Origin: Variovorax sp. OAS795
GTDB taxonomy: Bacteria > Pseudomonadota > Gammaproteobacteria > Burkholderiales > Burkholderiaceae_C
Direction of reading: 5' to 3'
Length of the DNA stretch: 64,000 bases
Assembly (NCBI RefSeq): GCF_040546685.1
Contig: NZ_JBEPOH010000001.1
Span: forward strand, 4,216,001 to 4,280,000
A program made the position numbers and the translations under genes. Shown piece after piece: positions 8,658-29,932 of this stretch. The notes under the pieces were generated by a model. The model did no database searches. It saw nothing but the letters and a program-made list of their open reading frames with translations, and had not been told where the DNA came from. How positions within the stretch are numbered: position 1 is the stretch's first letter; each line of letters opens with the position of its first letter.

Positions 8658-10816
8658 GCCAAGGCCTCCTCGGCACGGGCCGGTGCTGCCAACGCGTTGC
8701 GCGCATCGGCGGTGAGCTGCAGCGACGGTGCGCGGCGCACGATCGAGTCGAGCTGGTAGATGCTCGCGACCACGGGTGCGGGAACCGCGCCGGTGGAAGC
8801 CACGGGTTTTGCCGCGGTTGCGTTGCGAAGCGCGTCAGCCGGCATGGCACCGTTGTCGCCGATGGTGCGCAGCACGTCGGCTGCCGACTCGAAGGAGAAG
8901 CCCGGCAGGCCCAGCAGGTTGGCCAGCACACGCAGCACCTTCCAGGCCGGACGCGCTTCGCCTTGCGGCTTCACGACGGCATGGAAACCCTGCACGCGGC
9001 CTTCGGCATTGACGAAGGTGCCCGGCGTCTCGGTGAACGGGGCGATGGGCAGCAGCACGTCGCTGAATTCGAGATTGGCCTTGAACGGGCTCAGCGTGAC
9101 GACCATCTGGGCATTGCCGATAGTGTCTGCGGCCGCGGCGCCTGCGGCCGAGTCGAACACGGGTTCGGTGTTGAGCAGCAGCACGGCCTTGAGGCCGGAG
9201 CCCGCAGCCAGCATGCGGCCGGCATCGAGGCCGCCGTTCTTCGGGAACGCGCCGACGAGTTGCGCGCCCACGGTGTTGGCGGCTTCGGTCAGGTAGCCGA
9301 CGGTGGCGCCGGTCTGCGCGCCGATCCAGTTCGCGAGGGCCAGCAGGCTGCTGGCGTGCGCATGGTGGGCGGCGGCGTTGCCGAGCAGGATGGCCTTGCG
9401 CTCGCCGCTCAGCAGCGAGGCTGCGATGGCTTGCGCGGCGGCATCCGGCGCGTTCCTGGGTGCGAGCGGTGCGGCGGCGCCGCTGGACTGGCCGATGGCG
9501 GCGGCCACGGCGGCCAGCGCCTCGACCCACTGGTCGGCTTCGACGATGGTCGCTTGCGCCACGCTCATGGCCCAGGCTTCGGGGTCGGCCATCAGGCCGG
9601 CCGAGGTGATCACCGACAGCGCGGCGCCCTTGCGCACGGCCTGGCGGATGCGCTGTGCGAACAGCGGATGGTCCTTGCGCAGGTTCGAACCGACCACCAA
9701 CGCGCGCTGCAGCTGCGTGAGCGATGCGATCGAGGTGCCGAGCCAGCGCACGCCTTCGAACGCCGTGAACTCGGCGTTGCGCAGGCGATAGTCGATGTTG
9801 TCGCTGCCGAGCTCACGCGTGAGCATGGCGGCGAGCTGCAGTTCTTCGAGCGTGCTGTGCGGGCTCGCCAGCGTGCCGATGCTCTGCGCGCCGTGGTCGG
9901 CCTTGATCTGCTTGAGGCCATTGGCCACGTATTCGAGCGCGGTCTGCCAGTCGACCTGCTGCCATTGGCCGCCTTGCTTGAGCATGGGCTGCGTGAGGCG
10001 TTCGGGACCGTTCAGGCCTTCGTACGAGAAGCGGTCGCGGTCGGCGATCCAGCATTCGTTGACGTCTTCGTTCTCGAGCGGCACCACGCGCATCACGCGG
10101 TTGTTCTTGACCTGGACGATCAGGTTGGCGCCGGTGGAATCGTGCGGGCTCACCGACTTGCGGCGCGACAGCTCCCAGGTGCGGGCGCTGTAGCGGAACG
10201 GCTTGCTCGTGAGCGCGCCGACCGGGCAGATGTCGATCATGTTGCCCGACAGTTCGGAGTCGACCGAATCGCCGAGGAAGGTTTCGATTTCGGAGTGCTC
10301 GCCGCGCTGGGTCATGCCGAGCTCCATCACGCCGGCCACTTCCTGGCCGAAGCGGACGCAGCGCGTGCAATGGATGCAGCGGCTCATCTCTTCCATGCTG
10401 ATCAGCGGGCCCACGTCTTTATGGAAAACGACGCGCTTTTCTTCTTCGTAGCGCGAAGAAGAGCCGCCGTAGCCCACGGCGAGGTCTTGCAGCTGGCATT
10501 CGCCGCCCTGGTCGCAGATGGGGCAGTCCAGCGGGTGGTTGATCAGGAGGAACTCCATGACCGACTGCTGGGCCTTGATGGCCTTTTCGCTCTTGGTGCG
10601 AACGATCATGCCCTGCGTGACGGGGGTGGCGCAGGCCGGCATCGGCTTGGGCGCTTTTTCCACGTCGACCAGGCACATGCGGCAGTTGGCCGCGATGCTG
10701 AGCTTCTTGTGATAGCAGAAGTGCGGGATGTAGGTGCCCGCCTTGTCGGCCGCATGCATCACCATGCTGCCTTCGGTCACTTCGACCTTCTTGCCGTCGA
10801 GTTCGATTTCGATCAT
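8654..10816 (-). CDS. nuoG: NADH-quinone oxidoreductase subunit G
   Basis: 720 aa. N-terminal [2Fe-2S] ferredoxin fold with ligands around residues 34-66 ([15 protein letters not shown], then CATP). The His-Cys N5 motif [18 protein letters not shown] follows, then the N4 motif [11 protein letters not shown] with CPVGAL, and then a long molybdopterin-oxidoreductase-like domain that binds no cofactor in complex I. Part of the peripheral arm that carries electrons from NuoF. Its start codon overlaps the end of the mini-ORF at 10813-10896 instead of following nuoF directly. Confidence 0.97.
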
Positions 10817-10896
10817 GAGTATGTTTCTTCTCGCGCCAACGGACAGCCTCCGCCTTCGGCTGCGGTATTCACCTTGGGAACGGCCCGGCGGTTCAT
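10813..10896 (-). CDS. Mini-ORF bridging nuoF and nuoG (copy B of a repeated cassette)
   Basis: 27 codons. Its ATG overlaps the nuoF stop (ATGA, 10893-10896) and its TGA overlaps the nuoG start (ATGA, 10813-10816), so it fills the gap exactly. The first 13 residues fit M(S/N)R(T/R)AVPK(A/V)NTAA, shared with the mini-ORF at 29870-29932 between nrtB and nrtC. 33 of the first 38 bases are identical between the two copies. No known domain. It could be a real micro-peptide, a translational-coupling linker, or a repeated DNA element that happens to stay open. Only one of the five base differences is synonymous, so protein-level selection is not evident. Confidence 0.45.
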
Positions 10897-12233
10897 GCCT
10901 GGACCGGCGCCTTCGGGACGTAGCCCGGGATCAACGCCTCGAACTCGTGACGGAAGTGCTTGATCATGGCGCGCACCGGCATGGCCGCCGCGTCGCCGAG
11001 CGCGCAGATCGTGCGGCCCTGGATGTTGTCGGCCACGGAGTTGAGCAGGTCCATGTCGGACGCCCTGCCCTGCCCGTTGTGGATGCGGTCCACCACGCGG
11101 TAAAGCCAGCCCGTGCCTTCGCGGCACGGCGTGCACTGGCCGCAGGATTCGTGCATGTAGAAGTACGAGAGGCGCCTGAGCGACTCCACCATCGAGCGGC
11201 TGTCGTCCATGACGATGACTGCGCCCGAGCCCAGCATGGAGCCGGCCTTGGCGATGGAGTCGTAGTCCATCGTGCATTCCATCATGATGGAAGCCGGCAG
11301 CACCGGCGAAGACGATCCGCCCGGGATCACGGCCTTGAGCGTGCGGCCCGTGCGCACGCCGCCGCACAGCTCCAGCAGCTTGGAGAACGGCGTGCCCATG
11401 GGCACTTCGTAGTTGCCGGGCAGCTCGACGTCGCCGCTCACCGAGTAGATCTTGGTGCCGCCGTTGTTCGGCTTGCCGCACTCGAGGTACGCCGGGCCAC
11501 CGTTGTTGATGATCCACGGCACCGCCGCGAAGGTCTCGGTGTTGTTGATGGTGGTGGGCTTGCCGTACAGGCCGAAACTCGCCGGGAACGGCGGCTTGAA
11601 GCGCGGCTGGCCCTTCTTGCCTTCGAGCGATTCGAGCAGCGCGGTTTCCTCGCCGCAGATGTAGGCGCCGAAGCCGTGTGCGGCGTGCAACTGGAAGTTG
11701 TACGTGCTGCCCATGATCTTGTCGCCGAGATAGCCGGCGGCGCGCGCTTCCTCGAGCGCTTCCTCGAAGCGGTCGTAGCTTTGGAAGATCTCGCCGTGGA
11801 TGTAGTTGTAGCCGACGCTGATGCCCATTGCATACGCGGCGATGGCCATGCCTTCGATCACGATGTGCGGGTTGAACTGCAGGATGTCGCGGTCCTTGCA
11901 GGTGCCCGGCTCGCCTTCGTCGGAATTGCACACGAGGTACTTCTGCCCCGGGAACTGGCGGGGCATGAAGCTCCACTTCAGGCCCGTGGGAAAGCCCGCG
12001 CCGCCGCGGCCGCGCAGGCCCGATGCCTTGACCTCGGCAATCACCTGGTCGGGCGTGAGGCCCTCGGTGAGGATCTTGCGCAGCGCCTTGTAGCCGCCGC
12101 GCGCTTCGTAGTCGGCCAGGCGCCAGTTGGTGCCGTCGAGGCCGGCATAGATCTGCGGCTCGATGTGGCGGCCATGGAAACAGGTCTGGACACCCGTGGC
12201 CTGGAATTGCTGGAGCACTTGTTCGGGCGACAT
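10893..12233 (-). CDS. nuoF: NADH-quinone oxidoreductase subunit F
   Basis: 446 aa from the ATG at 12233 ([10 protein letters not shown]). The frame is open for 88 codons further upstream through nuoE, but that extension is out of family. It has the NADH/FMN site [16 protein letters not shown] (about residues 60-75), the SLBB domain, and the N3 cluster motif [12 protein letters not shown] with the fourth Cys in TICALGD. This is the NADH-oxidising subunit. The start overlaps the nuoE stop by one base (TGATG). Confidence 0.97.
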
Positions 12234-12790
12234 CACGCAGTCTCTCCTTTGGCGCTGCCGGCCGAGGCGCGCAGCCCTTCGATGAGCTGGTCGAGCTTGT
12301 CGTTGCTCATGAAGCTGCACATGGTGCGGTCGTTGACCAGCATCACGGGCGAATCGGCGCAGGCGCCCAGGCATTCGCTCTGCTGCAGGGTGAACAGGCC
12401 GTCGGCCGTGGTCTCGCCCATCTTGATGCCGAGCTTCTTCTCGAGGTGCACGAGCGCCGTGACACCGTCGCGCAGCTGGCACGGCAGGTTGGTGCACACG
12501 TTGAGCTTGAACTTGCCCACCGGGTGCTGGTTGTACATGTTGTAGAACGTCGTGACCTCGTGCACGGCGATGGGCGCCATGCCGAGGTATTCGGCGATCT
12601 CGCGCTCGCGCTGCATGCTGATGTAGCCCTCGTCCTGCTGGACGATGGCCAGGCAGGCCATCACCGCCGACTGCTTGCCGGCCTCGGGGTACTTGGCGAC
12701 CTCGCGCGCAAAGCGCTCGAGGATCGCGGGCTTCAGAGGAGCAGAAGGCGCCGAAGGCGCCGTGTCATGGTGGGTCGAGGAAGTCGTCAT
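12233..12790 (-). CDS. nuoE: NADH-quinone oxidoreductase subunit E
   Basis: 185 aa, thioredoxin-like [2Fe-2S] subunit (24 kDa homologue). The N1a ligands are visible as CTNLPC and CLGAC (about residues 103-148). The N-terminal 25 residues are a low-complexity Ser/Pro/Ala leader. The stop overlaps nuoF and the start is 10 bp after nuoD. Confidence 0.97.
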
Positions 12791-12800
12791 TCGCTCTTTC

Positions 12801-14054
12801 TCACCTGTCGATTTCGCCGAACACGATGTCCATCGTGCCGATCACCGCGACAGCGTCGGCAATCATGTGGCCGCGCGACATTTCGTCGAGGGCGGCAAGG
12901 TGCGGGAAGCCGGGTGCACGGATCTTCAGGCGGTACGGCTTGTTGGCTCCGTCGCTCACCAGGTAGATGCCGAACTCGCCCTTCGGGTGCTCGACGGCGG
13001 CATACGCTTCGCCTTCGGGCACATGGAAGCCTTCGGTGAAGAGCTTGAAATGGTGGATCAGCTCCTCCATGTTCGCCTTCATCGACTCGCGTGCGGGCGC
13101 AGCCACCTTGTGGTTGCTGGTGATCACCGGGCCGTCGTTGGCGCGCAGCCAGGCCGAGCACTGCTGGATGATCTTGTTGGCCTGGCGCATTTCTTCCACG
13201 CGCACGAGGTAGCGGTCGTAGCAATCGCCGGTCCGGCCGACCGGCACGTCGAACTGCATCTGGTCGTAGACGTCGTAGGGCTGCTTCTTGCGCAGGTCCC
13301 ATTCGATGCCCGAGCCGCGCAGCATGGGGCCGGTGAAGCCCAGGTTCAGCGCGCGCTCCGGCGTCACGACGCCGATGCCTACGGTGCGCTGCTTCCAGAT
13401 GCGGTTGTCTGTGAGCAGCGTCTCGTACTCGTCGACCATCTTCGGGAAGCGCTTGCAGAAGTCGTCGATGAAGTCGAGCAGCGAGCCCTGGCGGTTCTCG
13501 TTGAGCCGCTCGATGGCTTTCGCGTTCTTGATCTTGCTGACCTTGTACTGCGGCATCGCATCCGGCAGGTCGCGGTAGACGCCGCCCGGACGGAAGTACG
13601 CCGCATGCATGCGCGCGCCCGACACGGCTTCGTACATGTCGAACAGGTCTTCACGCTCGCGGAAGCAGTAGATGAGCATGTTCATCGCACCGCAATCCAG
13701 GCCGTGCGCGCCGAGCCACAAGAGATGGTTCAGCAGGCGGGTGATCTCGGCGAACATCACGCGGATGTATTGCGCGCGGATCGGCACGTCCAGGCCCATC
13801 ATCCGCTCGATGGCGAGGCAGTAGGCGTGCTCGTTGCTCATCATCGACACGTAGTCGAGACGGTCCATGTACGGCAGCGACTGGATGAAAGTGCGCGATT
13901 CGGCGAGCTTCTCGGTCGCGCGGTGCAACAGGCCGATGTGCGGATCGGCGCGCTGGATCACTTCGCCGTCGAGCTCGAGCACCAGTCGCAGCACGCCGTG
14001 CGCTGCAGGATGCTGGGGACCGAAGTTGAGTGTGTAGTTCTTGATTTCGGCCAT
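12801..14054 (-). CDS. nuoD: NADH-quinone oxidoreductase subunit D
   Basis: 417 aa, 49-kDa subunit related to the large subunit of NiFe hydrogenases. It forms the quinone pocket with NuoB. It starts with [23 protein letters not shown], which includes the conserved GPQHPAxHG motif with the quinone-site His. The nuoC stop is one base before this gene. In this species nuoC and nuoD are separate genes, not fused as in E. coli. Confidence 0.97.
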
Positions 14055-14055
14055 A

Positions 14056-14667
14056 TCAGTGCAAACCGCTGCCGTAGTTGTCTTCGCGGATCACGCGCGG
14101 CGTGATTTCGCGGGGCTCGATCGATACCGGCTGATAGACGACGCGCTTCTGTTCTTCGTCGTAGCGCATTTCCACGTGGCCGGACACCGGGAAGTCCTTG
14201 CGGAACGGATGGCCGATGAAGCCGTAGTCGGTCAGGATGCGACGCAGGTCGTCATGTCCTTCGAACACGATGCCGTAGAGGTCGAAGGCCTCGCGCTCGA
14301 ACCATGTGGCGGCGTTCCAGACAGGCTGGAGCGAATCGACCACGGGCAGGTCTTCGTTGGGCGCAAACACCTTGAGGCGCACGCGCTGGTTGAGGCTCAC
14401 CGAAAGCAGGTGCGTGACGACGCAGTAGCGCGCGCCCTCCCATGCGCCTTCGCGGTAGTCGGAATAGTCCATGCCGCAAAGGTCGATCAGCTGCTCGAAG
14501 CGGCAGCCGGGCGCGTCGCGCAGCAGGGTGGCGGCCTCGATGTACACATCGGCGCCGACCACCACGGTCACCTCGCCCAGGGCGAGCGTGACGCTCCTGG
14601 CGCGTGCGCCAAGGGTCTCAGCGATGATGGCGCGCAGCACCTCCGGCGAAATTGCAAAGTCGGTCAT
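14056..14667 (-). CDS. nuoC: NADH-quinone oxidoreductase subunit C
   Basis: 203 aa from ATG at 14667 ([11 protein letters not shown]), preceded by a GAGAG Shine-Dalgarno-like stretch. A start nine codons upstream (14694) would overlap nuoB. 30-kDa subunit with the signature ERExFDxxG visible as [15 protein letters not shown] (about residue 130). It connects the peripheral arm to the membrane arm. Confidence 0.96.
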
Positions 14668-14680
14668 CGTCGGCAATCTC

Positions 14681-15160
14681 TCAGGCGCGGGCAATGGTGT
14701 TGGTGCGGCGGATCTTCTGCTGCAGCTGGATCACGCCATAGAGCAGAGCCTCGGCGGTGGGCGGGCAACCCGGCACATAGACGTCGACCGGCACGATGCG
14801 GTCGCAGCCGCGCACCACCGAATAGCTGTAGTGGTAGTAGCCACCGCCATTGGCGCACGAGCCCATCGAGAGCACCCAGCGCGGCTCGGGCATCTGGTCG
14901 TAGACCTTGCGCAGCGCCGGCGCCATCTTGTTGCACAGCGTGCCGGCCACGATCATCAGATCGGACTGGCGCGGACTGGGCCGGAACAGCATGCCGAAGC
15001 GGTCGATGTCGTAGCGGGCTGCGCCCGCGTGCATCATTTCGACCGCGCAGCAAGCCAGGCCGAATGTCATCGGCCAGAGTGATCCGGTCTTCGCCCAGTT
15101 CACCACCGAGTCGTAGGTGGTGGTGACGAAGCCTTCCTTCATGACGCCTTCAATGGCCAT
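14681..15160 (-). CDS. nuoB: NADH-quinone oxidoreductase subunit B
   Basis: 159 aa. It coordinates the terminal cluster N2: the tandem cysteines are in [12 protein letters not shown] and the other ligands in [11 protein letters not shown] and VPGCPP. The N-terminal amphipathic region precedes the fold. The gene is 15 bp after nuoA. Normal length. Confidence 0.97.
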
Positions 15161-15175
15161 TTTGTCGATTCCTTG

Positions 15176-15535
15176 TCATTCCCAGTCGAGCGCGCCTTTT
15201 TTCCACTCGTAGGCAAAGCCCACGACGAGGATGGCGAGAAAGATCATCATGGCCCAGAAGCCGACGGCGCCGATTTCCTTGAGCGCGATGGCCCACGGAA
15301 AGAGAAAGGCAATCTCGAGATCGAACAGGATGAAGAGAATGGCAACGAGGTAATAGCGCACGTCGAATTTCATGCGCGCATCCTCGAAGGCCTCGAAGCC
15401 GCACTCGTAGGGAGCGTTCTTCGCAGCGTCGGGCCGGTTGGGGCCCAGGATGTAGCCGATGACTTGCGGTGCGACGCCTACACCGACACCGACCAGAATG
15501 AACAAAAGGACGGGGAGATAGGAATCGAGGTTCAT
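15176..15535 (-). CDS. nuoA: NADH-quinone oxidoreductase subunit A
   Basis: 119 aa from ATG 15535 ([12 protein letters not shown]). A GTG five codons upstream is possible but would give an unusual leader. Three membrane helices, with the conserved loop [23 protein letters not shown] (positions about 50-72) at the quinone cavity. First gene of the nuo operon. Upstream lie a strong hairpin and tRNA-Leu, so the operon probably shares a transcript with, or starts near, the tRNA. Confidence 0.96.
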
Positions 15536-15557
15536 CGGGAGATTTTTCACCGCTTGC

Positions 15558-15598
15558 CACTGGCAGGAAAACGCTCTGGATGAGGTTTTCTGCCAGTG
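15558..15598 (-). promoter_or_regulatory. Leader hairpin between tRNA-Leu and nuoA
   Basis: CACTGGCAG at 15558-15566 pairs with CTGCCAGTG at 15590-15598. The stem extends by GAAAAC/GTTTTC with one bulged G, giving about 14 bp with a 12-nt loop. No T-tract follows in the minus direction, so it is not a classical terminator. Possible roles are 3'-end maturation of the tRNA precursor, protection of the nuoA mRNA 5' end, or an attenuator. Seen directly; function inferred. Confidence 0.6.
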
Positions 15599-15603
15599 AG
15601 ATT

Positions 15604-15688
15604 TGGTGCGGTCGGCGAGACTCGAACTCGCACAGCTTTCGCCACTACCCCCTCAAGATAGCGTGTCTACCAATTTCACCACGACCGC
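15604..15688 (-). tRNA. tRNA-Leu (anticodon GAG)
   Basis: 85 nt including an encoded CCA end. The acceptor stem GCGGTCG pairs with CGACCGC. The D arm contains AATTGGTAGAC, the anticodon stem-loop is CTATC-TTGAGGG-GGTAG, giving GAG. A class II variable arm follows, and the T arm contains GTTCGAGTC. It sits between secG and nuoA on the same strand. Confidence 0.97.
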
Positions 15689-15805
15689 GGTTTTTTGTTC
15701 GGATGGCATGAGGTACCTGGAAAGGTGTTTGGCTTTCCGAACAGCTTTAGAGTTTACCCTGAAATGAAGTCGTTTCTTGCAGGCAACTCCATGAAAACAA
15801 CTTGA
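15689..15805 (-). other. secG-tRNA-Leu spacer
   Basis: 117 bp with no gene. It holds an inverted repeat GGAAAG/CTTTCC within a wider TGTTCGG/CCGAACA pair flanking a KpnI-type palindrome. On the minus strand an A-tract follows, not T, so this is not a clear terminator. No convincing promoter boxes were recognised. Confidence 0.4.
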
Positions 15806-16222
15806 TTATTTGTTGGGGATCTGCCCCGGGCCCGAAACAGGTGCGGCGGGCGCCGAAGCCGGTGCATTGGCAGGCGCCGCGCCACCCGAAGTGCCCGAAG
15901 GAATCTGCCCTGCGGGCGTCGAGGCGGGCGACGCCGGCGCACCCACCGCCGTACGCTCCAGCAGGCTGCCGCCGCCCGTGGGCCGCGCATGGCTGAAGTA
16001 AGCCAGCAGCAGCGTGGTGGCAAAGAAGACAGCCGCCAGGACGGCCGTGGTGCGCGAGAGGAAATTCGCGCTGCCGCTCGCACCGAACAGGCTGCCCGCG
16101 CTGCCGCTGCCGAAGGCCGCGCCCATGTCGGCACCCTTGCCGTGCTGGATCAGGATCAGCCCGATCATTGCAAGGGCCGACAGCATCTGCACGCCGACCA
16201 GAAGATTGAGGACCACATTCAT
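15806..16222 (-). CDS. secG: Protein translocase subunit SecG
   Basis: 138 aa. Two membrane helices (about residues 2-22 and 54-73) around the conserved cytoplasmic loop with GKGADMGAAFGSGSAGSLFG. They are followed by an unusually long Pro/Ala/Ser/Gly-rich C-terminal tail of about 60 residues; E. coli SecG is 110 aa. Non-essential partner of SecYE that eases preprotein export. It follows tpiA with a 38-bp gap, the usual arrangement. Confidence 0.95.
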   Translation of the reverse strand: MNVVLNLLVGVQMLSALAMIGLILIQHGKGADMGAAFGSGSAGSLFGASGSANFLSRTTAVLAAVFFATTLLLAYFSHARPTGGGSLLERTAVGAPASPASTPAGQIPSGTSGGAAPANAPASAPAAPVSGPGQIPNK

Positions 16223-16260
16223 TCGTTCTTACTCCTAATTATTGGCAGCCGCGGCCCGCG

Positions 16261-17028: not shown

Positions 17029-17039
17029 GTCGTTGCCCC

Positions 17040-18038: not shown

Positions 18039-18057
18039 GGTCTTTGGCCTGCGACGA

Positions 18058-20574: not shown

Positions 20575-20621
20575 GACACAGCTTCGCTCTGTTTTGGCAC
20601 TCCGAAAGTGGATCGCGAAGT

Positions 20622-20661
20622 AAAAAACGCCTGAGCTAGCGGACTAACCCAGGCGTTTTTT
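20622..20661 (-). terminator. Intrinsic terminator/attenuator between rpsO and pnp
   Basis: AAAAAACGCCTG (20622-20633) is a perfect 12-base complement of 20650-20661, with a 16-base loop and a T-run on either strand. It lies 13 bp after the rpsO stop. It probably gives partial termination so that rpsO is made in excess of pnp, as with t1 in E. coli. Confidence 0.85.
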
Positions 20662-20674
20662 CATGCGATTCGAT

Positions 20675-20941: not shown

Positions 20942-20973
20942 GTTGATTTCCTTGTTCCGGGATGTTTGACTTG

Positions 20974-21034
20974 CGGTGAGCGCTGGAACTGCCCTCACCG
21001 TGCGCCTTGCGGCATGCAAAGCCTCGGAATTATA
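20974..21034 (-). promoter_or_regulatory. rpsO promoter and leader hairpin
   Basis: On the minus strand a perfect TATAAT box lies at 21029-21034, with no good -35 box 17 bp further upstream. The predicted transcript start near 21022 leaves an 80-base leader. It contains CGGTGAG (20974-20980) pairing with CTCACCG (20994-21000). S15 represses its own mRNA in E. coli through a leader structure; whether this hairpin plays that role is inference. Confidence 0.6.
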
Positions 21035-21055
21035 GCTCGCCCCGATCTTGCGCGT

Positions 21056-22213: not shown

Positions 22214-22223
22214 GTCGTCGTTC

Positions 22224-23504
22224 CTAGATTCTTTTCATTTTGCAGCTGGTCGGCAGCTCGGCGCGCTCGGGGGCGATGGTCTTGATCACGCGAAAGCCGT
22301 AGCCCGAACCTTCGACATCGAACTGCACGCCGGGCTTGCCCTGCTTGTCCATCACGCCCACCACCAGCTGCTGCTGGAACTGGTGGTCGGCCGCGCGCAT
22401 GCGGCCGCGCTGCCCGTAGAGGCTCACGTCGGCCTGCTCGAGCGCGCGCGCCACGGCCACCGCGTCGGCGCTGCCGGCGCGTTCGATCGACTGCGCGAGC
22501 GACTCCACGAGCAGTTGCATGCGCATGTGCACGTAGTCGTCGGCGGGTTTGGGAAAGCGCGTTCGGAAGGCGCGGTAGAACGCCTCGGACTGCGCGGTCT
22601 GCACATTGGGCAGCCAGTCGGCCACAGCGATCACGCGGCCGATGCCGGCGTCGCCGATGGCCGCGGGCGCGCCCAGGGCGTTGCCGTAGAAGGTGTAGAA
22701 GGTGCCGTTGAAGCCGGCCTCGCGCGCCGCCTTCACCAGCAGCGTGAGGTCGTTGCCCCAGTTGCCGGTGAACACCGCCTGTGCGCCGCTCGCCAGGATC
22801 TTGCTGGCGTAGGGCGCAAAGTCCTTCACCTTGCCCATCGGGTGCAGTTCGTCGCCGACGATCTCCACATCGGGCCGCTGCACGCCCAGCTGGCGCTTCG
22901 ATTCGCGCAGCACCGCCTGGCCAAAGCTGTAGTCCTGGCCGATGAGGTAGGCCCGCTTGAGCGACGCATCGTCCTTCACCACTTCCATCAGCGCGGCCAC
23001 GCGCATGTCGGCATGCGCATCGAAGCGGAAGTGCCAGAAGCTGCAGCGCTCGTTGGTGAGCGCCGGATCGACGGCCGCGTAATTGAGGAAGATCACGCGC
23101 CGCGAGGGATCGCGCTCGTTGTTCTTCTCGATCGCATCGACCAGGGCCGCGGCGGTGGCCGACGAGTTGCCCTGCAGCACGATGCGCGCGCCGTCGTCCA
23201 TGGCCGCGCGCAGTGCCGACAGCGCCTCTTCGTTCTGTCCCTTGCTGTCGTAGCGGTCGAGCTGCAGCGGCCGTGCACCACCCGGCAGCTTGATGCCGCC
23301 GCGCGCATTCACGCGCTCCACGGCCCACAGCAGGTTGCGGAACACCGCCTCGCCGGTGTTGGCGAACGGGCCGCTCATGCTCTCGATCAATGCGAGGCGG
23401 AGGGGTGCGGGCGGCGTCTGGGCCTGCGCACCGAACGGCGCTGCGCATAGCGCCAGCGCGGCAAATTTCAAGGCCTTGCGACGCCAAATAAAGGGGGGGT
23501 TCAT
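22224..23504 (-). CDS. Branched-chain-amino-acid-type ABC transporter substrate-binding protein
   Basis: 426 aa from MNPPFIWRRKALK. A Sec-type signal peptide (basic RRK, hydrophobic LKFAALALCAAPFG, cleavage AQA-QTPP) is followed by a Peripla_BP_6 (LivK-like) fold starting LRLALIESMSGPFANTG. No transporter permease or ATPase genes are adjacent, so it is either an orphan binding protein or serves a distant transporter. It is co-directional with the aminotransferase gene, separated by 10 bp. Ligand unknown. Confidence 0.88.
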   Translation of the reverse strand: MNPPFIWRRKALKFAALALCAAPFGAQAQTPPAPLRLALIESMSGPFANTGEAVFRNLLWAVERVNARGGIKLPGGARPLQLDRYDSKGQNEEALSALRAAMDDGARIVLQGNSSATAAALVDAIEKNNERDPSRRVIFLNYAAVDPALTNERCSFWHFRFDAHADMRVAALMEVVKDDASLKRAYLIGQDYSFGQAVLRESKRQLGVQRPDVEIVGDELHPMGKVKDFAPYASKILASGAQAVFTGNWGNDLTLLVKAAREAGFNGTFYTFYGNALGAPAAIGDAGIGRVIAVADWLPNVQTAQSEAFYRAFRTRFPKPADDYVHMRMQLLVESLAQSIERAGSADAVAVARALEQADVSLYGQRGRMRAADHQFQQQLVVGVMDKQGKPGVQFDVEGSGYGFRVIKTIAPERAELPTSCKMKRI

Positions 23505-23625
23505 TGTCTTGAAACGGGTGCGGCCATGCCTAGATGAGGTGGCAAGCGGCACTCAGGATTGAATGGCCGCGCAGTGTAAGGGACACACATTCTTGTCCTC
23601 ATTGTGTTCATTCAGGAGTTCTCAC

Positions 23626-23997
23626 ATGTTTTTCGCCCCCACCCTTCGCACCGCCCGCTTCGCACCCCGTTCGTACGATCGCGCCTTCGAGCGCTTCGTC
23701 AACGAAGCCTTCACCGGCGCCATCCGTTCGCCGCTCGTCGAACAGGACGACAAGAGCTGGACGCTCTCGCTCGATGTGCCGGGCTTCTCGCGCGAAGACC
23801 TCAGCATCGGCATCGAAGGTGCCGTGGTCCGCATCGACAGCAAGGCCGACGCCAAGCGCCAGTTCAAGGCTGCCTACGAGCTGCCGCTGGACATCGACGT
23901 GGCAGCCAGCGAGGCCAAGCTCGAAAATGGCGTGCTCACGCTGAAGCTCGGCAAGCAGGTGCCGGTGAGCCAGGTTTCGGCCCTGCAGATCAACTGA
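23626..23997 (+). CDS. Small heat-shock protein (Hsp20/alpha-crystallin family)
   Basis: 123 aa. The ATG at 23626 is chosen because CAGGAG lies 8 bases upstream; the frame is open further but lacks a ribosome binding site. The alpha-crystallin domain (about residues 38-120) ends in the signature AxxxNGVLxLxL, visible as AKLENGVLTLKL. N- and C-terminal arms are short and no clear I-x-I motif is present, so oligomer assembly may differ from IbpA. ATP-independent holdase chaperone. Divergent from the binding protein gene. Confidence 0.9.
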   Translation: MFFAPTLRTARFAPRSYDRAFERFVNEAFTGAIRSPLVEQDDKSWTLSLDVPGFSREDLSIGIEGAVVRIDSKADAKRQFKAAYELPLDIDVAASEAKLENGVLTLKLGKQVPVSQVSALQIN

Positions 23998-24017
23998 GCT
24001 TGCAAAGCCCGCGGGAG

Positions 24018-24042
24018 AAAAGTGTCGTTCACTTTTGTTTTT
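24018..24042 (+). terminator. Intrinsic terminator after the hsp20 gene
   Basis: AAAAGTG and CACTTTT form a 7-bp stem with a TCGTT loop, followed by GTTTTTG. It lies 20 bp after the hsp20 stop codon. Confidence 0.7.
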
Positions 24043-24103
24043 GACTTTGAACGCACTCCCTATTCACAATAGGGCAGCGGATAACGTCACATGATGTGAC
24101 GTT
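24041..24103 (+). promoter_or_regulatory. Putative promoter with two perfect palindromes upstream of the esterase-like gene
   Basis: TTGACT at 24041-24046 and CACAAT at 24065-24070 with 18-bp spacing resemble -35/-10 boxes. CCCTATT-CAC-AATAGGG (24058-24074) overlaps the -10 box. A second palindrome, AACGTCACAT-G-ATGTGACGTT (24083-24103), lies just after the predicted start site. Both look like operators for dimeric regulators; the second could also act as a terminator stem because T-rich sequence follows. Confidence 0.5.
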
Positions 24104-24187
24104 TTCACATTTTTTCTCTTCGTGGGCGTCTCGCAAACGCACCGAATCCCCGGCGGTGCGGATTCGGGTGCCCCCTCAAGGCACACC

Positions 24188-24946
24188 ATGATCACGCACT
24201 TCAAGCCAGCCAAGGACAATGAACGGTCCGACACCCTCCTGGTCTTCCTGCCTGGCGCATACCTGAAACCCGACGAATTCGAGCGCGAAGGCTTCATCAG
24301 CGCCGTGCGGGAGCGCCACCTGGCAGCCGACTCGCTGCTGGTGGACGCGGACGTTTCCTACTACTACGACCAGACGCTCAGCGAACGCCTGCATGCCGAC
24401 GTCATCGCGCCGCAACGTGCCAAGGGCTACAAGTCGATCTGGCTCGTGGGCATTTCGATCGGCGGCTTCGGCGCGCTGGTCCACGAACTGTCGCGGCCGG
24501 GCTCGGTCGACGGCATCGTGGCGCTGGCCCCGTATTTGGGGCGCCGCGTCCTGGGCGCCGAGATCCACAAGGCCGGCGGCCTGCGCACGTGGCAGGCTCC
24601 CACCGGGCCCCAGCCCGACGAGGAAGTCGACCGCAAGCTGTGGCCCTGGTTCCAGCAATACCTGCAACCCCAGCAAGCCCAGAAGCTGCCGCAGCTCTAT
24701 CTCGGCTTTGGCCTGGACGACCGCTTTGCCAGCAACCACAAGCTGCTGGCCGATGCCTTGCCCGAAGGACGCGTCTTCACGACCGAAGGCGGCCACGACT
24801 GGCCGCAATGGCGCCAGCTGTGGCGCAACATGCTCGACGTGCTGCCCGTGCCTTCGCTCGCCCGCTCGCCCCGCCCCGCTGCTAGGCGCTCGCCTGCAAG
24901 GCTGTCCCGGATGCCATCAGCGAAGCCATGGGCCATCGCGGCTTGA
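24188..24946 (+). CDS. Alpha/beta-hydrolase fold protein, esterase-like
   Basis: 252 aa from [15 protein letters not shown]. Nucleophile elbow GISIGG (about residue 95), a likely acid residue in FGLDDRF (about 178) and a catalytic His in GGHDW (about 200) give a credible Ser-Asp-His triad. No signal peptide, so cytosolic. The last 65 bp overlap the 3' end of tsaD on the other strand, making the Arg/Pro-rich C-terminal 20 residues suspicious as conserved sequence. Substrate unknown. Confidence 0.8.
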
Positions 24947-25943
24947 CGTCGAAGGCATAGCGTTCGCTGGCCTCGGCCAGCCCTGATTGCAGCCGCATCG
25001 CGGCCGCCATGGCGATCATGGCGCCGTTGTCCGTGCACAGGTGCAGTTCCGGATAGTGCACGCGCACGCCGCGCCTGGCGCAGGCGGCGTTCAGCTGCTC
25101 GCGCAGGCTGCGGTTCGCCCCAACCCCGCCGGCCACCACCAGCCGCTGGAGGCCGGTTTGCTCGAGTGCCGCCATCGACTTCTTCAGCAGCACCTCGACG
25201 ATCGCCGCCTGCGTCGATGCCGCAAGGTCGGCCTTGTTCGCCTCGAGTCCGGCGCCGAGCTTCTTGGCTTGCGTCAGCACCGCGGTCTTGAGCCCTGCGA
25301 ACGAAAAGTCCAGGTCGCCGCTGTGCAGCAGCGGGCGCGGCAGCTTGAAGGCGGTGGCATTGCCCTCTTCGGCCAGCTTGGCGAGCCAGGGGCCGCCGGG
25401 ATACGGCAGGCCCATGAGCTTGGCGCTCTTGTCGAAGGCCTCGCCGGCCGCATCGTCGATGGTTTCGCCCAGCAGCGCATAGCGCCCGACGCCGTCAACC
25501 CGCATCAGCTGCGTATGTCCACCCGACACCAGCAGCGCCACGAACGGGAACTCCGGCGGGTCTGCGCTCAGGAACGGCGACAGCAGGTGGCCTTCGAGGT
25601 GATGCACCCCCAGCACCGGCTTGCCGAGCGCCGCGCCCAATGCGCACGCCACCCCCGCGCCCACCAGCAAGGCGCCGGCGAGCCCGGGCCCGCGCGTATA
25701 GGCGACCACGTCGATCTCGGCCAGCGAGCGTCCCGCCTCGGCCATCACCGCTTCGGTCAGCGGCAGCACGCGGCGGATGTGGTCGCGGCTGGCCAGCTCC
25801 GGCACCACGCCCCCGTAGGCCTGGTGCATGGCGATCTGGCTGTGCAGCGCGTGCGCGCGCAGCAGCGGCAGCGCGCTGCCGCGCGACTCCACCAGCGCCA
25901 CGCCGGTCTCGTCGCAGGAGGATTCGATTCCCAACAAGAGCAT
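24882..25943 (-). CDS. tsaD: tRNA N6-adenosine threonylcarbamoyltransferase
   Basis: 353 aa. ASKHA fold with the metal-binding HLEGH motif (about residue 115) and the starting motif [16 protein letters not shown]. It transfers threonylcarbamoyl to A37 of ANN-decoding tRNAs together with TsaB and TsaE. Not in an operon here. Its start is 115 bp from the divergent nasR-like gene. Confidence 0.97.
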
Positions 25944-26028
25944 GGGGCGAGTTTAGGCGGGCCGTGCGACCGGCGCCGGCCTGGGGGTACGGCGGCGCGA
26001 CCGATGGCTCGCCCCGATTCGCTGCCCA

Positions 26029-26044
26029 CGGCACGAATGTTGCA
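26029..26044 (+). promoter_or_regulatory. Sigma-54 promoter of the NIT-ANTAR regulator gene
   Basis: CGGCACGAATGTTGCA matches the consensus TGGCACG-N4-TTGCW in all but the first base. GG (26030-26031) and GC (26042-26043) have the required 10-base spacing. Transcription would start near 26055, only about four bases before the ATG at 26059. The mRNA would then be nearly leaderless. Confidence 0.8.
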
Positions 26045-26058
26045 CCTGCACTCCGACA

Positions 26059-27339
26059 ATGAAATCCGGACTGAGTTATCTGATCGCCGCCCGAAAGTGC
26101 GAAATCGACGAGCTGGACCAGCTCGCGCGCACCAGCGACCTGGTGGTCCTGATCGCACGCCTGGTGCATGCGCTCCAGCGGGAACGCGGCATGTCCAACG
26201 TGTTCCTGGCCTCGCGCGGCGTCCGCTTCGCCGGCCAGCGCGATCCGCAGATCGCCGAATGCCAGGCGCTCGAACAGGCGGTGCGCGCGGGGTTCGACCA
26301 GCTCGAGACCGAGGCGCGCCCGGGCACCACCGCGGGCAACAGCGCCCGCCTCTTCAGCCGCATCGCCTGGGTGCTGCCGGGGCTCGATGGGCTGCCGGCC
26401 TTGCGCGGCCGCGTCGGCGCGCTCGAACTGACGCCCGCGCAGGCCACGGCCGCTTTCGCGAAGCTCGTCGCAGGCTTGCTGGCCGTGGTGTTCGAGGCGG
26501 CCGATGGCGCCACCGATCCCGAGATCTCGCGCCTCCTGGTCGCGATGTTCAATTTCATGCAGGGCAAGGAGTTCGCGGGCCAGGAGCGCGCGTTCGGCGC
26601 CGCCTCGCTGGCCGTGGGCCGGCGCGACGAGGCGCAGCGCCAGCAATGGCTGCATCTCATCGAGCTGCAGGAGCGCTGCTTCCAGGTCTTCATCGATTTT
26701 TCGAGCAGCGGCGTGCTGGCGCTCTGGCACCAGGGCCAGTCAGACGTTGCGACGGCGGAGATCGAACGCATGCGCCGCATCAGCGTGAGCTCGGCGCAAG
26801 CGGCTTCCGCGGCCGTGCCCGACCCGCGGTTGAGCCAGGACTGGTTCGACAGCTGTACGCGCCGCATCGACGCCATGAAGTCCGTCGAGGACCGCCTGGC
26901 CGCCGACCTGCGCGCGCTCTGCGCGCGCAAGACCACCGAGGCGCGCAGCGAGTTGCAACAGTACGAGGAAGTGCTGGGCACGCTGGCGCCGCAAGCCGAA
27001 GGCGCGGCCTTCTTCGACGACACCGGCACCCAGGCGACGGAGCCCGCGCCCTACGGCCGGCACCTGGAGCGCTCGGTGCTCGACATGGTCCAGGAGCAAT
27101 CGCACCGACTGCAGGCCATGAGCGACGAACTCGAAACCGTGCGCGCCTCGCTCAACGAGCGCAAGCTGGTCGAGCGCGCCAAGGGCCTCCTGATGGCGCA
27201 CCGGCGCATGACCGAGGCAGAGGCCCACAAGATGCTGCTGCAGACGGCCATGAACCAGAAGCGCCGGCTCGTCGACGTGGCCGAGTCGATGCTCGCCATG
27301 GCCGACTACCTGCCCCTGGCCGAGACGCCGCAGCGCTGA
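26059..27339 (+). CDS. nasR: NIT-domain ANTAR transcription antiterminator (NasR-like)
   Basis: 426 aa. N-terminal helical NIT domain (about 15-300), the nitrate/nitrite sensor fold of Klebsiella NasR, with the characteristic LVHALQRERGMSNVFLAS. The C-terminal ANTAR RNA-binding domain (about 365-420) contains LNERKLVERAKGLLMAHRRMTEAEAHKMLLQTAM. In Klebsiella, nitrate binding lets ANTAR dimers bind a leader hairpin and block termination upstream of nasF. The terminator-containing nrtA leader begins directly after this gene. No membrane segment; cytosolic. Likely under NtrC/sigma-54 control. Confidence 0.92.
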   Translation: MKSGLSYLIAARKCEIDELDQLARTSDLVVLIARLVHALQRERGMSNVFLASRGVRFAGQRDPQIAECQALEQAVRAGFDQLETEARPGTTAGNSARLFSRIAWVLPGLDGLPALRGRVGALELTPAQATAAFAKLVAGLLAVVFEAADGATDPEISRLLVAMFNFMQGKEFAGQERAFGAASLAVGRRDEAQRQQWLHLIELQERCFQVFIDFSSSGVLALWHQGQSDVATAEIERMRRISVSSAQAASAAVPDPRLSQDWFDSCTRRIDAMKSVEDRLAADLRALCARKTTEARSELQQYEEVLGTLAPQAEGAAFFDDTGTQATEPAPYGRHLERSVLDMVQEQSHRLQAMSDELETVRASLNERKLVERAKGLLMAHRRMTEAEAHKMLLQTAMNQKRRLVDVAESMLAMADYLPLAETPQR

Positions 27340-27355
27340 AGAAGCGGGCACGGGC

Positions 27356-27388
27356 GCACGAATTGGTGCGGCGCACAACAATCGTGCA
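27356..27388 (+). promoter_or_regulatory. Candidate NtrC enhancer dyads upstream of nrtA
   Basis: GCAC-N7-GTGC occurs at 27373-27387 with the spacing of NtrC sites (GCACC-N5-GGTGC). A second pair, GCAC-N6-GTGC, lies at 27356-27369, one base short of ideal. They lie about 127 and 145 bp before the predicted sigma-54 start, a typical enhancer distance. Confidence 0.55.
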
Positions 27389-27480
27389 CGCAAGCAGCTT
27401 TCCGCCCCAACCAACCGGACGACAAACCCCAGGCCGGGCTCCTGCTGCCCCTTTGATAGCGAATGAGGGGTCCGAAAAGC

Positions 27481-27496
27481 TGGCACACAGTTTGCT
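27481..27496 (+). promoter_or_regulatory. Sigma-54 promoter of the nrt operon
   Basis: TGGCACACAGTTTGCT fits TGGCAC-N5-TTGCW completely, with GG at 27482-27483 and GC at 27494-27495. The transcript would start near 27507, directly in front of the leader hairpins. Confidence 0.87.
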
Positions 27497-27508
27497 GAAG
27501 TAGTCCAT

Positions 27509-27556
27509 GGACCCCTGGGTCCCAGGCAGGCAAACATCCAACGGCGGGTGTTTGCC
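27509..27556 (+). promoter_or_regulatory. ANTAR-type leader hairpins of nrtA
   Basis: 27529-27539 pairs with 27546-27556 (11 bp with one G-U pair) around the hexaloop AACGGC. Its first base is A and fourth base G, the rule for ANTAR target loops. Just upstream GGACCC/GGGTCC (27509-27522) can form a second small stem without the canonical hexaloop. Position right after the sigma-54 start and before a terminator matches antitermination leaders such as Klebsiella nasF. Confidence 0.75.
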
Positions 27557-27570
27557 GACCGACATCGGAC

Positions 27571-27640
27571 AAAGGCGTCCCCATCCCGCAAGGGCTCGTT
27601 TTCGAGCGGCCCTTGCGCGGTGCGGACGCCTTTTTTGTTT
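27571..27640 (+). terminator. Leader terminator (attenuator) before nrtA
   Basis: AAAGGCGTCC (27571-27580) pairs perfectly with GGACGCCTTT (27624-27633). Inside, CGCAAGGG/CCCTTGCG and CTCG/CGAG continue the stem to a TTTT loop. A T-rich tail follows, beginning TTTTTTGTTTTT. It stands between the ANTAR hairpin and the nrtA start at 27683, so it would stop transcription unless NasR acts. Confidence 0.88.
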
Positions 27641-27682
27641 TTCGCTTTTCCTTTTTTGTTGTTCTTCAACCGGAGCCCGTCC

Positions 27683-28927
27683 ATGACCGATCTGCTGAAA
27701 ACCCGCCTCAGCCGCCGCCGCGTACTGCAAGCCGCCGCCATCGGCGCCGTGGGGATCGATCCCGCCCTGCGCGCCGCCGTCTGGGCCCAGGGCTCCGACA
27801 AGCCGGAGAAGGAGGAAGTGAAGATCGGCTTCATCCCGCTGACCGACTGCGCCAGCGTGGTGATGGCCTCGGTGCTCGGCATCGACAAGAAATACGGCGT
27901 GAAGATCGTGCCCAGCAAGGAGGCCAGCTGGGCCGGCGTGCGCGACAAGCTCTCCAACGGCGACCTGGACATGGCGCACGTGCTCTATGGCCTGGTCTAC
28001 GGCATGCACCTGGGCCTGAGCGGTCCCAAGAAGGACATGGCCGTGCTCATGACCCTCAACAACAACGGCCAGGCCATCACGCTGTCGAAGAAGCTCGCCG
28101 ACAAGGGCGCGGTGGACGCCGCCTCGCTCGCCAAGCTCATCGCCACCGAGAAGCGCGAATACACCTTTGCCCAGACCTTCCCCACCGGCACGCACGCCAT
28201 GTGGCTCTACTACTGGCTCGCCTCGGCCGGCATCGACCCGTTCAAGGACGTCAAGAACATCACGGTGCCGCCTCCGCAGATGGTGGCGAACATGCGCGTG
28301 GGCAACATGGACGGCTACTGCGTCGGCGAGCCTTGGGGCCAGCGCGCGATCATGGACGGCATCGGCGTGACGGCCATCACCACGCAGGACATCTGGAAGG
28401 ACCATCCCGAGAAGGTGCTCGGCACCACGGGCGACTTCGTCAAGAAGTACCCCAACACCGCGCGCGCCGTCACCGCGGCCATCATCGAGGCCGGCAAGTG
28501 GATCGACACGGGGCTGCAGAACAAGAACAAGATGGCCGAGACCATCGCCGACAAGAGCTACGTCAACACCAGCGTGGACGCCATCAACCAGCGCATCCTG
28601 GGCCGCTACGTCAACGGCATGGGCAAGAGCTGGGACGACCCCAACCACATGAAGTTCTACAACGGCGGCGCGGTGAGCTTCCCGTACCTGTCGGACGGCA
28701 TGTGGTTCCTCACGCAGCACAAGCGCTGGGGCCTGCTCAAGGAACATCCGGACTACCTCAAGGTGGCCACCGAGATCAACCGCATCGACATCTACAAGCA
28801 GGCCGCCGCCGCCACCCAGACCCCCGTGCCCAAGGACCCGATGCGCAGCAGCAAGCTGTTCGACGGCACCGTGTGGGACGGCAAGGACCCGAAGAAGTAC
28901 GCCGATTCGTTCAAGCTGCACGTCTGA
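27683..28927 (+). CDS. nrtA: Nitrate ABC transporter substrate-binding protein, CmpA/NrtA family
   Basis: 414 aa from the ATG at 27683 (CCGGAGC ten bases upstream). Twin-arginine signal peptide SRRRVLQAAAIGAVG with cleavage near AVWAQ. The NrtA/CmpA-type periplasmic domain starts KIGFIPLTDCASVV. It contains NMRVGNMDGYCVGEPWGQRA, typical of nitrate/bicarbonate binders. Delivers nitrate to NrtBC. First gene of the attenuated operon. Confidence 0.93.
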   Translation: MTDLLKTRLSRRRVLQAAAIGAVGIDPALRAAVWAQGSDKPEKEEVKIGFIPLTDCASVVMASVLGIDKKYGVKIVPSKEASWAGVRDKLSNGDLDMAHVLYGLVYGMHLGLSGPKKDMAVLMTLNNNGQAITLSKKLADKGAVDAASLAKLIATEKREYTFAQTFPTGTHAMWLYYWLASAGIDPFKDVKNITVPPPQMVANMRVGNMDGYCVGEPWGQRAIMDGIGVTAITTQDIWKDHPEKVLGTTGDFVKKYPNTARAVTAAIIEAGKWIDTGLQNKNKMAETIADKSYVNTSVDAINQRILGRYVNGMGKSWDDPNHMKFYNGGAVSFPYLSDGMWFLTQHKRWGLLKEHPDYLKVATEINRIDIYKQAAAATQTPVPKDPMRSSKLFDGTVWDGKDPKKYADSFKLHV

Positions 28928-28940
28928 GGAGAAACACACC

Positions 28941-29873
28941 ATGGTCAGCGCCGTTTTTCATTCGCCGATGGACGCCTCTCTTCCTCTCCCGCGTGCGGCA
29001 GAGGGCCGCAGCGAGAGTGCAGCCCGCACAGAGGCAACTCCCCTGCCCACCCCCCGAAAGGAACGTGTGCAGAAGCCACGCTCTCCCATCGACCTGCGCG
29101 CCTTCTGGATGCGCGTGCTGCCGCCGCTCGCGGGCTTCGGCCTGCTGGTGCTGATCTGGGAGCTGGTCGCCATGAAAAGCACCACCGGCTTCCCGTCGCC
29201 GCTGGCCACCTGGCAGCAGGCGCTCACTGTGTTCAGCGATCCGTTCTACAGCAAGGGACCCAACGACCAGGGCGTGGGCTGGAACGTGCTCTCGTCGCTG
29301 CAGCGCGTGGCGCTGGGCTTCGGGCTCGCGGCGGCCGTCGGCATTCCGGCCGGCTTTGCGATCGGGCGCTTCGAGTTCCTCTCGCGCATGTTCAATCCGC
29401 TGATCAGCCTGATGCGCCCGGTGTCGCCGCTCGCATGGCTGCCCATCGGCCTCTTGGTGTTCAAGGGTGCGAACCCGGCGGCCATCTGGACCATCTTCAT
29501 CTGCTCGATCTGGCCGATGGTGATCAACACCGCAGTGGGCGTGCAGCGCGTTCCGAGCGACTACATGAACGTGGCCAAGGTGCTGAACCTCAGCGAGTGG
29601 AAGATCTTCACCAAGATCCTCTTCCCCGCCGTGCTGCCCTACATGCTCACGGGCGTGCGCCTGGCCGTGGGCACCGCGTGGCTCGTGATCGTCGCGGCCG
29701 AAATGCTCACCGGCGGCGTCGGCATCGGCTTCTGGGTCTGGGACGAGTGGAACAACCTCAACGTCGCCAACATCATCATCGCGATCTTCGTCATCGGCAT
29801 CGTCGGCCTGGTGCTCGAGTTCGCCCTCATCAAGCTCGCAACCGCGTTCACGTTCGAAGAGGTGAAATCATGA
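28941..29873 (+). CDS. nrtB: Nitrate ABC transporter permease
   Basis: 310 aa. A long hydrophilic N-terminal extension (about 50 residues, low complexity) is followed by six membrane helices. The BPD_transp_1 EAA loop is visible around NVAKVLNLSEWKIFTKILFPAVLP. Inner-membrane pore for nitrate uptake. GAGGAGA precedes the ATG. Its stop overlaps the start of a 20-codon mini-ORF instead of leading straight to nrtC. Confidence 0.93.
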   Translation: MVSAVFHSPMDASLPLPRAAEGRSESAARTEATPLPTPRKERVQKPRSPIDLRAFWMRVLPPLAGFGLLVLIWELVAMKSTTGFPSPLATWQQALTVFSDPFYSKGPNDQGVGWNVLSSLQRVALGFGLAAAVGIPAGFAIGRFEFLSRMFNPLISLMRPVSPLAWLPIGLLVFKGANPAAIWTIFICSIWPMVINTAVGVQRVPSDYMNVAKVLNLSEWKIFTKILFPAVLPYMLTGVRLAVGTAWLVIVAAEMLTGGVGIGFWVWDEWNNLNVANIIIAIFVIGIVGLVLEFALIKLATAFTFEEVKS

Positions 29874-29932
29874 GCCGCACGGCCGTTCCGAAGGCGAATA
29901 CCGCAGCGCTGCTGCGCGGAGGTTTCCAATGA
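29870..29932 (+). CDS. Mini-ORF bridging nrtB and nrtC (copy A of a repeated cassette)
   Basis: 20 codons. ATGA at 29870-29873 joins the nrtB stop to its start, and ATGA at 29929-29932 joins its stop to the nrtC start. The N-terminal pattern M(S/N)R(T/R)AVPK(A/V)NTAA and the first 38 bases (33 identical) match the nuoF-nuoG mini-ORF. The GGAGG within it serves as the ribosome binding site of nrtC. No known domain. Either a micro-protein or a repeated operon-linker sequence. Confidence 0.45.
   Translation: MSRTAVPKANTAALLRGGFQ

Follow-up and report, generated by a model that had tools for sequence, protein, structure and literature searches.

How does an operon junction come to hold a complete small open reading frame (ORF) that starts on the stop codon of one gene and stops on the start codon of the next, and what might such a frame do there? 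The question is raised twice within a 64,000-nucleotide stretch of Variovorax sp. OAS795 (contig NZ_JBEPOH010000001.1, positions 4,216,001 to 4,280,000), referred to here as the window, which contains one mini-ORF between nuoF and nuoG and another between nrtB and nrtC. Both mini-ORFs belong to a repeat that is scattered through the genomes of Variovorax, Polaromonas, Ramlibacter and their relatives. The evidence set out below makes it likely that this repeat is mobile and non-autonomous, that its insertions fall in the sense orientation on operon stop codons, mainly at ATGA overlaps, and that it acts there as a relay. A first-pass annotation of the window had described the pair, and its coordinates, strands and ATGA overlaps at both ends are all exact, as is its count of 33 identical bases among the first 38. 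Its statement that four of the five base differences fall at amino acid changes or at the neighbouring codon position holds in a narrower form: one difference is synonymous (CCC/CCG), and the other four alter three amino acids (N/S, R/T by two bases, and V/A). The parts of the two junctions are as follows.

8654..10816, minus strand: nuoG, whose start ATG overlaps the stop of mini-ORF 1
10813..10896, minus strand: mini-ORF 1, 84 nt, 27 codons plus stop, from the nuoF stop to the nuoG start
10839..10896, minus strand: element copy 1, a match to model R1, short-hairpin sub-type, at the stop of nuoF
10847..10851, minus strand: Shine-Dalgarno-like GGAGG of copy 1, from the sequence
10852..10860, minus strand: stem-loop 2 of copy 1, GCC GAA GGC
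10871..10892, minus strand: stem-loop 1 of copy 1, from alignment and covariation, coordinates counted on the sequence
10893..12233, minus strand: nuoF, whose stop TGA forms positions 2-4 of the element's ATGA
28941..29873, plus strand: nrtB, whose stop TGA forms positions 2-4 of the element's ATGA
29870..29932, plus strand: mini-ORF 2, 63 nt, 20 codons plus stop, from the nrtB stop to the nrtC start
29870..29928, plus strand: element copy 2, a 59-bp unit from ATGA to the next ATGA, four-nucleotide-loop sub-type
29874..29895, plus strand: stem-loop 1 of copy 2, from alignment and covariation, coordinates counted on the sequence
29906..29917, plus strand: stem-loop 2 of copy 2, GCGC TGCT GCGC
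29918..29922, plus strand: Shine-Dalgarno-like GGAGG of copy 2, 6 nt 5' of the nrtC ATG
29929..30738, plus strand: nrtC, a nitrate-type ABC ATPase, whose start ATG overlaps the stop of mini-ORF 2

The start of mini-ORF 1 overlaps the stop codon of nuoF (AGGC-ATGA) and its end overlaps the start codon of nuoG (ACTC-ATGA). For mini-ORF 2, whose peptide is MSRTAVPKANTAALLRGGFQ*, the corresponding overlaps are with the stop codon of nrtB (AATC-ATGA) and the start codon of nrtC (TCCA-ATGA). The four proteins encoded on either side score above the cut-offs of the NCBIfam models for NuoG, NuoF, NtrB and a nitrate-type ABC ATPase. A 26-bp core is matched twice in the window and in none of 100 shuffled versions, and the 3' parts of the two copies belong to different sub-types (hairpin GCC-GAA-GGC versus GCGC-TGCT-GCGC). 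Across the family the usual unit is 59 bp, with a range of 54-72 bp among copies followed by a gene. In the consensus, ATGA is followed by stem-loop 1, which is built on a nearly invariant GGCCG; a GCGAATACCG linker leads on to stem-loop 2, and GGAGG and some 7 nt come before the next ATGA. Copies also occur in head-to-tail arrays, in which neighbouring units have the ATGA in common.

Reading frame and placement at gene junctions

The wider family was surveyed at 420 loci, including 140 regions fetched from places given by same-genus core-pattern searches and family model searches. The 431 hits reduced to 370 unique ones, of which 363 scored at least 22 bits and 347 carried a start codon; the 16 start-less copies were left out of the context counts. 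An earlier hit set had fallen from 202 to 176 once identical neighbourhoods were removed. For each copy the distance d was measured between the ATG of the mini-ORF and the start that follows, which was either that of the downstream gene, as given by its coding frame, or that of the next tandem copy. A usable downstream start was found for 281 of the 347 copies, and upstream stops were sought only from about 60 nt 5' of the element.

The distance obeys a frame rule. Divided by three, d leaves a remainder of 2, with which the mini-ORF can end on the following start, in 202 copies; of 0, which puts the two in frame with each other, in 77; and of 1 in two, one of these two out-of-frame exceptions depending on a doubtful TTG and the other spanning an extra piece in an array. 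When the 273 copies that could be parsed into segments (eight of the 281 could not) are reduced to their 36 combinations of segment lengths, 18 combinations give 2, 16 give 0 and two give 1. Shuffling the segments puts 29% of combinations out of frame on average, and none of 2000 shuffles was as low as the observed value; counted by copies, 0.7% are out of frame against 18% after shuffling. Several length combinations contain cancelling -1/+1 indels, which alter the peptide and keep the total frame. No premature stop precedes the next start in any of the 281 copies, and the other two frames stop in 44 and 51 copies. Among 225 gene-followed copies, 196 of them single, 178 are relays, 46 are fusions and one is out of frame. 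The stop-start overlap of the relays is four bases long (ATGA/GTGA-type) in 157 and one base (TAATG, TGATG and so on) in 20, and 45 of the 46 fusions continue for 60 nt or more before any stop.

The placement of the copies is equally ordered. The first-pass annotation had named random, out-of-frame copies as the outcome that would count against it; the copies lie otherwise, the upstream gene stopping on the TGA of the element's ATGA in 231 of the 262 cases with a readable same-strand upstream gene, and only two of 281 copies being out of frame. Both neighbours are in the sense orientation in 202 of 347 copies, the remainder, apart from ten with an antisense neighbour, being tandem, weak or short. 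The genes concerned are diverse, since 167 usable junctions represent 130 distinct gene pairs. In a chosen sample of junctions, Pfam assigned the pairs CTP synthase/DAHP-synthase family (which we take to be pyrG/kdsA), fumarase/racemase, acyltransferase/SDR, MurD-like/FtsW, two ABC ATPases, and HlyD/RND pump.

The idea that the mini-ORF is a cassette that keeps translation running between genes, which the first-pass annotation had drawn from two copies, is supported by this wider evidence of junction and frame; from the frame rule we infer that the mini-ORF is very probably translated as a relay. Ribosomes finishing the upstream gene would restart at the ATG of the mini-ORF, read some 20 codons and stop on or beside the downstream ATG, where the GGAGG would help them to restart. 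In the fusion variants they would instead read on into the downstream gene. An insertion of this type would be translationally transparent, with coupling kept, and so could spread in operons at little cost. The element may also tune the downstream gene.

Two further arrangements were seen among the surveyed loci. At L151, L104 and L095 the upstream gene continues into the element and terminates at its distal edge (60-63 nt), which adds a C-terminal tail to the upstream protein. At L092, L077 and L108 tandem units of 57-60 bp lie in one frame and would extend the downstream N-terminus by a repeat peptide.

Peptide and fold

One explanation for a recurring small frame is that a conserved small protein gene has been duplicated into operons. 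The main sub-type does have a recurring peptide, MSRRA[AV]PKANTAARSAEV, and the ratio of nonsynonymous to synonymous changes, relative to possible changes, is 0.69. Across the family, however, 124 distinct 59-bp elements specify 108 different peptides, diversity is equal at the three codon positions, compensating indels put the middle of the peptide into another frame, and compensatory changes in the hairpins alter amino acids. A conserved small protein was accordingly rejected on peptide diversity and codon-position evidence, and we regard it as highly improbable. The peptide is poorly conserved, and what is kept is the open frame and the fold; the mini-ORF peptide is probably without a function of its own. 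This diversity of peptides, together with the covariation of the hairpins, bears out the view of the first-pass annotation that the repeat exists at the level of DNA rather than of peptide.

The fold itself appears as two stem-loops. For 121 matches drawn from a selection of 100 loci, 98.2% of pair cells are able to pair and two-sided changes occur in nine of the 12 pairs, in an alignment that was fitted to the structure and hence leans toward it. Double-change cells number 98, against 25.9 in shuffled alignments (0 of 500 reaching 98) and 1-31 in slid versions, and an earlier alignment made from sequence only (A2) had already given two-sided changes in five of 11 predicted pairs. Single-sequence folding of the two window copies is uninformative (z-scores 0.35 and 0.62), so that the case for structure rests on covariation. 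Judged from this covariation, the two-stem-loop structure is real.

Strong covariation in two stem-loops, with GGAGG at the foot of the second, is also what might be expected of a structured RNA regulator of downstream translation, either riboswitch-like or a protein-binding leader, in which the mini-ORF would be incidental. The window gave 0 matches to Rfam families above gathering score, which sits with this explanation as well. Yet a regulator of this kind would have no need of the frame rule or of the lack of premature stops, and the genes that it would control have no function in common (167 junctions with 130 different gene pairs, nuo, nrt, an RND pump and others being represented). The element is, moreover, patchy among close relatives, and its masking of the Shine-Dalgarno sequence is not above that of shuffled sequence. 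An RNA regulator is therefore judged unlikely.

Several observations weigh against the relay or loosen it. The codon-position diversities (0.135, 0.161 and 0.159) show no protein-like pattern. Kinship among copies means that the frame counts are not fully independent, which the test on 36 combinations corrects in part, and the gene frames came from a codon model built on a small number of genes of the window, so that they are less certain outside the genus. The upstream stop lies off the element in 31 of 262 cases (in 23 upstream of it, and in eight reading into or past it or with no stop found), 16 of 363 copies have no start codon, seven of them reading CTGA, and ten of 347 have an antisense neighbour; together these indicate that the relay is not obligatory. 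Finally, opening the GGAGG costs 5.03 kcal/mol as against 5.37 kcal/mol in shuffled sequence (p=0.67), as computed on 111 of the first 120 of 133 copies. Sequestration of the Shine-Dalgarno sequence by the hairpins was set aside on this equality, and since the GGAGG is not measurably less accessible than in shuffled sequence, a step in which it would be freed through unwinding by the mini-ORF ribosome is unsupported.

Insertion, spread and targeting

Comparison of orthologous junctions allows filled and empty sites to be set side by side. At nrtB/nrtC, 23 same-genus loci include five with a short element and 15 that are empty, the remaining three consisting of one different repeat, one longer unrelated spacer and one unreadable sequence; the locus of G010 (L242) was left out of the reading. 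The filled sites of G000, G004 and G011 hold one sub-type and those of G003 and G008 two others. G018 and G020, which are close relatives, have the site empty, and there the sequence is continuous through a single ATGA. At pyrG/kdsA, 19 loci comprise one filled site (59 bp), 15 empty ones, 13 of them with an ATGA overlap, and three with a longer element. At both of these junctions, comparison of empty with filled sites shows a precise insertion that leaves ATGA at both ends. At the nrtB/nrtC junction of G013 (L231), a different short repeat with a CTTCGACAAGCTCAGG core is found in the ATGA junction, which gives nrtB/nrtC the look of a hot spot for insertion.

The nuoF/nuoG junction was entered by another route. 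Among 23 same-genus loci, two are filled (G000 and G020), 19 are empty, one has another repeat and one is unreadable. Here the insertion went into the plain CTGA stop of nuoF, which reads ATGA once filled, and the old 20-nt leader was retained. The last 24 nt of mini-ORF 1, consisting of this leader and the nuoG ATGA, are present at the empty sites and hence are older than the insertion; the mini-ORF is nevertheless in frame with the ATGA of nuoG (80 nt, 2 mod 3). The patchy presence of copies among close relatives suggests that they have been gained, and perhaps lost. At the same junction in G003 (L197), an antisense copy of a longer class lies between the two genes.

The repeat is widely but unevenly distributed. 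The window's own genome (6.09 Mb) has four copies at up to three mismatches; with the model, 16 matches reach E<=0.05, among them two units of a longer sub-type in tandem. The core pattern is present in 19 of 41 genomes, made up of 19 of 25 from the same genus (its own counted) and 0 of 16 others of the order. Among 80 of 119 stretches, pattern-bearing records come from Variovorax, Polaromonas, Ramlibacter, Rhodoferax, Rubrivivax, Caenimonas, Hylemonella, Methylibium and Rhizobacter, several of them being metagenome assemblies. With the covariance model R1 at E<=1e-6, matches were found in 62 of 150 family genomes and in 57 of 141 genera; four of these genomes hold at least 31-40 copies each, the copy numbers per genome being lower bounds, as the filters miss weak matches. 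In an order-wide draw of 150 genomes, two match at E<=1e-9, namely the window's own and G162 of another family, and none of the three other same-family genomes in that draw matches at this threshold. Two Variovorax plasmid records carry one copy each, at phnJ/phnK, and a third, partial plasmid match, in Streptomyces (E=0.5), was taken as chance. A search of viral contigs with one exact core pattern gave 0 matches. In plasmid 4 of Variovorax sp. SRS16 (L035), the annotated phnK begins at the element's first ATG, with the result that the element has been counted within phnK.

The choice of target extends beyond the stop codon. As a control, 182 element-free ATGA/GTGA junctions were taken from the same loci and compared with 231 copies for the upstream base and 196 single copies for codon 2. 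The base before ATGA is C in 206 of 231 copies as against 119 of 182 controls (p=6e-9), and AGC follows the downstream start in 100 of 196 copies as against 45 of 182 controls (p=2e-7). The preference at codon 2 is hard to explain by selection on translation, which suggests sequence-specific insertion. As candidates for the mover, Y1/RAYT-type transposases are missing from four of ten copy-rich genomes (G226, G263, G271 and G314, with 16-31 copies) and present in nine of nine comparison genomes in which no copy was found, and no significant element copy was found near 18 Y1 loci. Mobility of the REP/RAYT type is thus unsupported both by the distribution of Y1 and by the surroundings of its loci. 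The sole Y1_Tnp (PF01797) match in the window's genome (L036, G000:C1:4804582-4804917) has no significant element copy beside it.

Stem-loop 1 is not confined to the short element. In 100 genomes of the order, a longer class with this stem-loop has 27 copies in G073, three in the window's genome and one each in three genomes of other families. For 31 of its copies, most of them in G073, 17 are antisense to both neighbours and five sense to both, and where the upstream gene is sense (seven copies) its stop lies at the corresponding place in 0 of seven. As this longer class is dispersed too, the hairpin fold may serve mobility. The three longer elements at pyrG/kdsA (L443 in G023, L451 in G005 and L452 in G003) measure 86, 77 and 83 bp, each 2 mod 3, and have a CCCCC-GGGGG-type hairpin and a mini-ORF that stops on the ATGA of kdsA, so that the long class can play the same junction role. 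The long element of L443 clearly has stem-loop 1 of the short class, and the short class seems to be a branch of the longer-class group that became adapted to junctions.

These observations bear on a further explanation, in which the repeat would be purely selfish, its hairpins would serve mobility only, insertions elsewhere would have been purged and the host would gain no benefit. Stem-loop 1 is common to a longer dispersed class that is often antisense to its neighbours, the target-site preference exceeds the needs of translation, and occurrence is patchy in close relatives, all of which favour it; on the other side, it has no known mover, and Y1/RAYT is not tied to the copies. We consider it a credible account, though one that falls short of an even chance by a clear distance. 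It is compatible with the relay, which would have made the spread harmless, and differs only in denying a benefit.

Comparison with known repeats

Beyond what the first-pass annotation proposed, the repeat is mobile, spread across many genera, often tandem, and of the MIRU-like kind already described in mycobacteria. The account of MIRUs (mycobacterial interspersed repetitive units) by Supply et al. from 1997 reportedly has the ends of the ORF overlapping both neighbours, DTGA targets, tandem copies, and a sense orientation in operons of unrelated genes. Overlap at both ends is found here upstream in 231 of 262 cases and downstream in 177 of 178 gene-followed relays, the 46 fusions being without downstream overlap. 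Insertion into a stop-start overlap is found at nrtB/nrtC and pyrG/kdsA, with nuoF/nuoG showing entry at a plain stop instead. The sense orientation in unrelated operons is likewise seen, with 202 of 347 copies sense on both sides, 10 of 347 having an antisense side, and 130 gene pairs among 167 junctions. In contrast to MIRU, the present repeat belongs to another phylum and is mostly a 59-bp unit; the likeness drawn here is one of kind and not of family. The features shown here beyond MIRU are two covarying stem-loops, a quantified frame rule with a fusion variant, empty sites and a target preference. In the part of a 2025 review that treats them, MIRUs are apparently mobile and insert at start codons, with an ORF coupled at a -4 spacing that likely minimises harm (PMC12548453). 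As far as that account goes, the two are alike as short dispersed operon-junction repeats that carry a small ORF.

Within the Betaproteobacteria the comparison is with BRE (beta-proteobacterial repeat element), which in the section devoted to it is a 75-91 bp repeat of Bordetella, with full copies of about 90 bp and partial ones of about 40-60 bp (Hot et al. 2011, PMC3110155). The same section places BRE also between convergent genes and describes no reading frame or stop-start rule (PMC3110155). On that description both are dispersed, tandem-prone, mobile-featured betaproteobacterial repeats, BRE including Polaromonas, Rhodoferax and Delftia. The longer class found here (77-86 bp) is possibly BRE, to judge from the descriptions, and part of the short class may also correspond to it.

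Two other groups of elements invite comparison. REP sequences are short hairpin repeats that are moved by RAYT (Y1) transposases; the present repeat resembles them in its short hairpins and GC-rich stems, and differs in having no tie to Y1 and in being junction-bound, sense-oriented and frame-keeping. Rickettsia palindromic elements are mobile, translatable palindromic DNA within genes, where they lengthen proteins, whereas the repeat here lies between genes, the fusion variants excepted.

In a literature search with limited coverage of subscription papers, no description of this repeat family was found, BRE and MIRU being the nearest. The family appears to be a separate, structured, betaproteobacterial version of MIRU, with one hairpin in common with a longer class. 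It can be suggested, at not quite even chances, that a REP-like hairpin repeat evolved into a portable relay in which the fold and a permitted open frame, and not the peptide, are selected, and that its placement on xTGA is owed to a dedicated sequence-specific machinery (C-ATGA-GC). On that view, elements of the MIRU type would have originated separately in phyla far apart, and a mobile element would have written some of the operon wiring in these bacteria. The repeat also supplies an RNA motif with covariation for which the window gave no Rfam match, and offers a reason for the ORFs of about 20 codons and the N-terminal extensions that automated gene calling may predict in these bacteria. 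Its natural insertions in soil bacteria, with empty sister sites at three junctions, provide a means to measure the worth of translational coupling. Finally, the comparison suggests that the MIRU way of life, in which a mobile repeat settles in stop-start overlaps with a relay ORF of its own, is not peculiar to mycobacteria.

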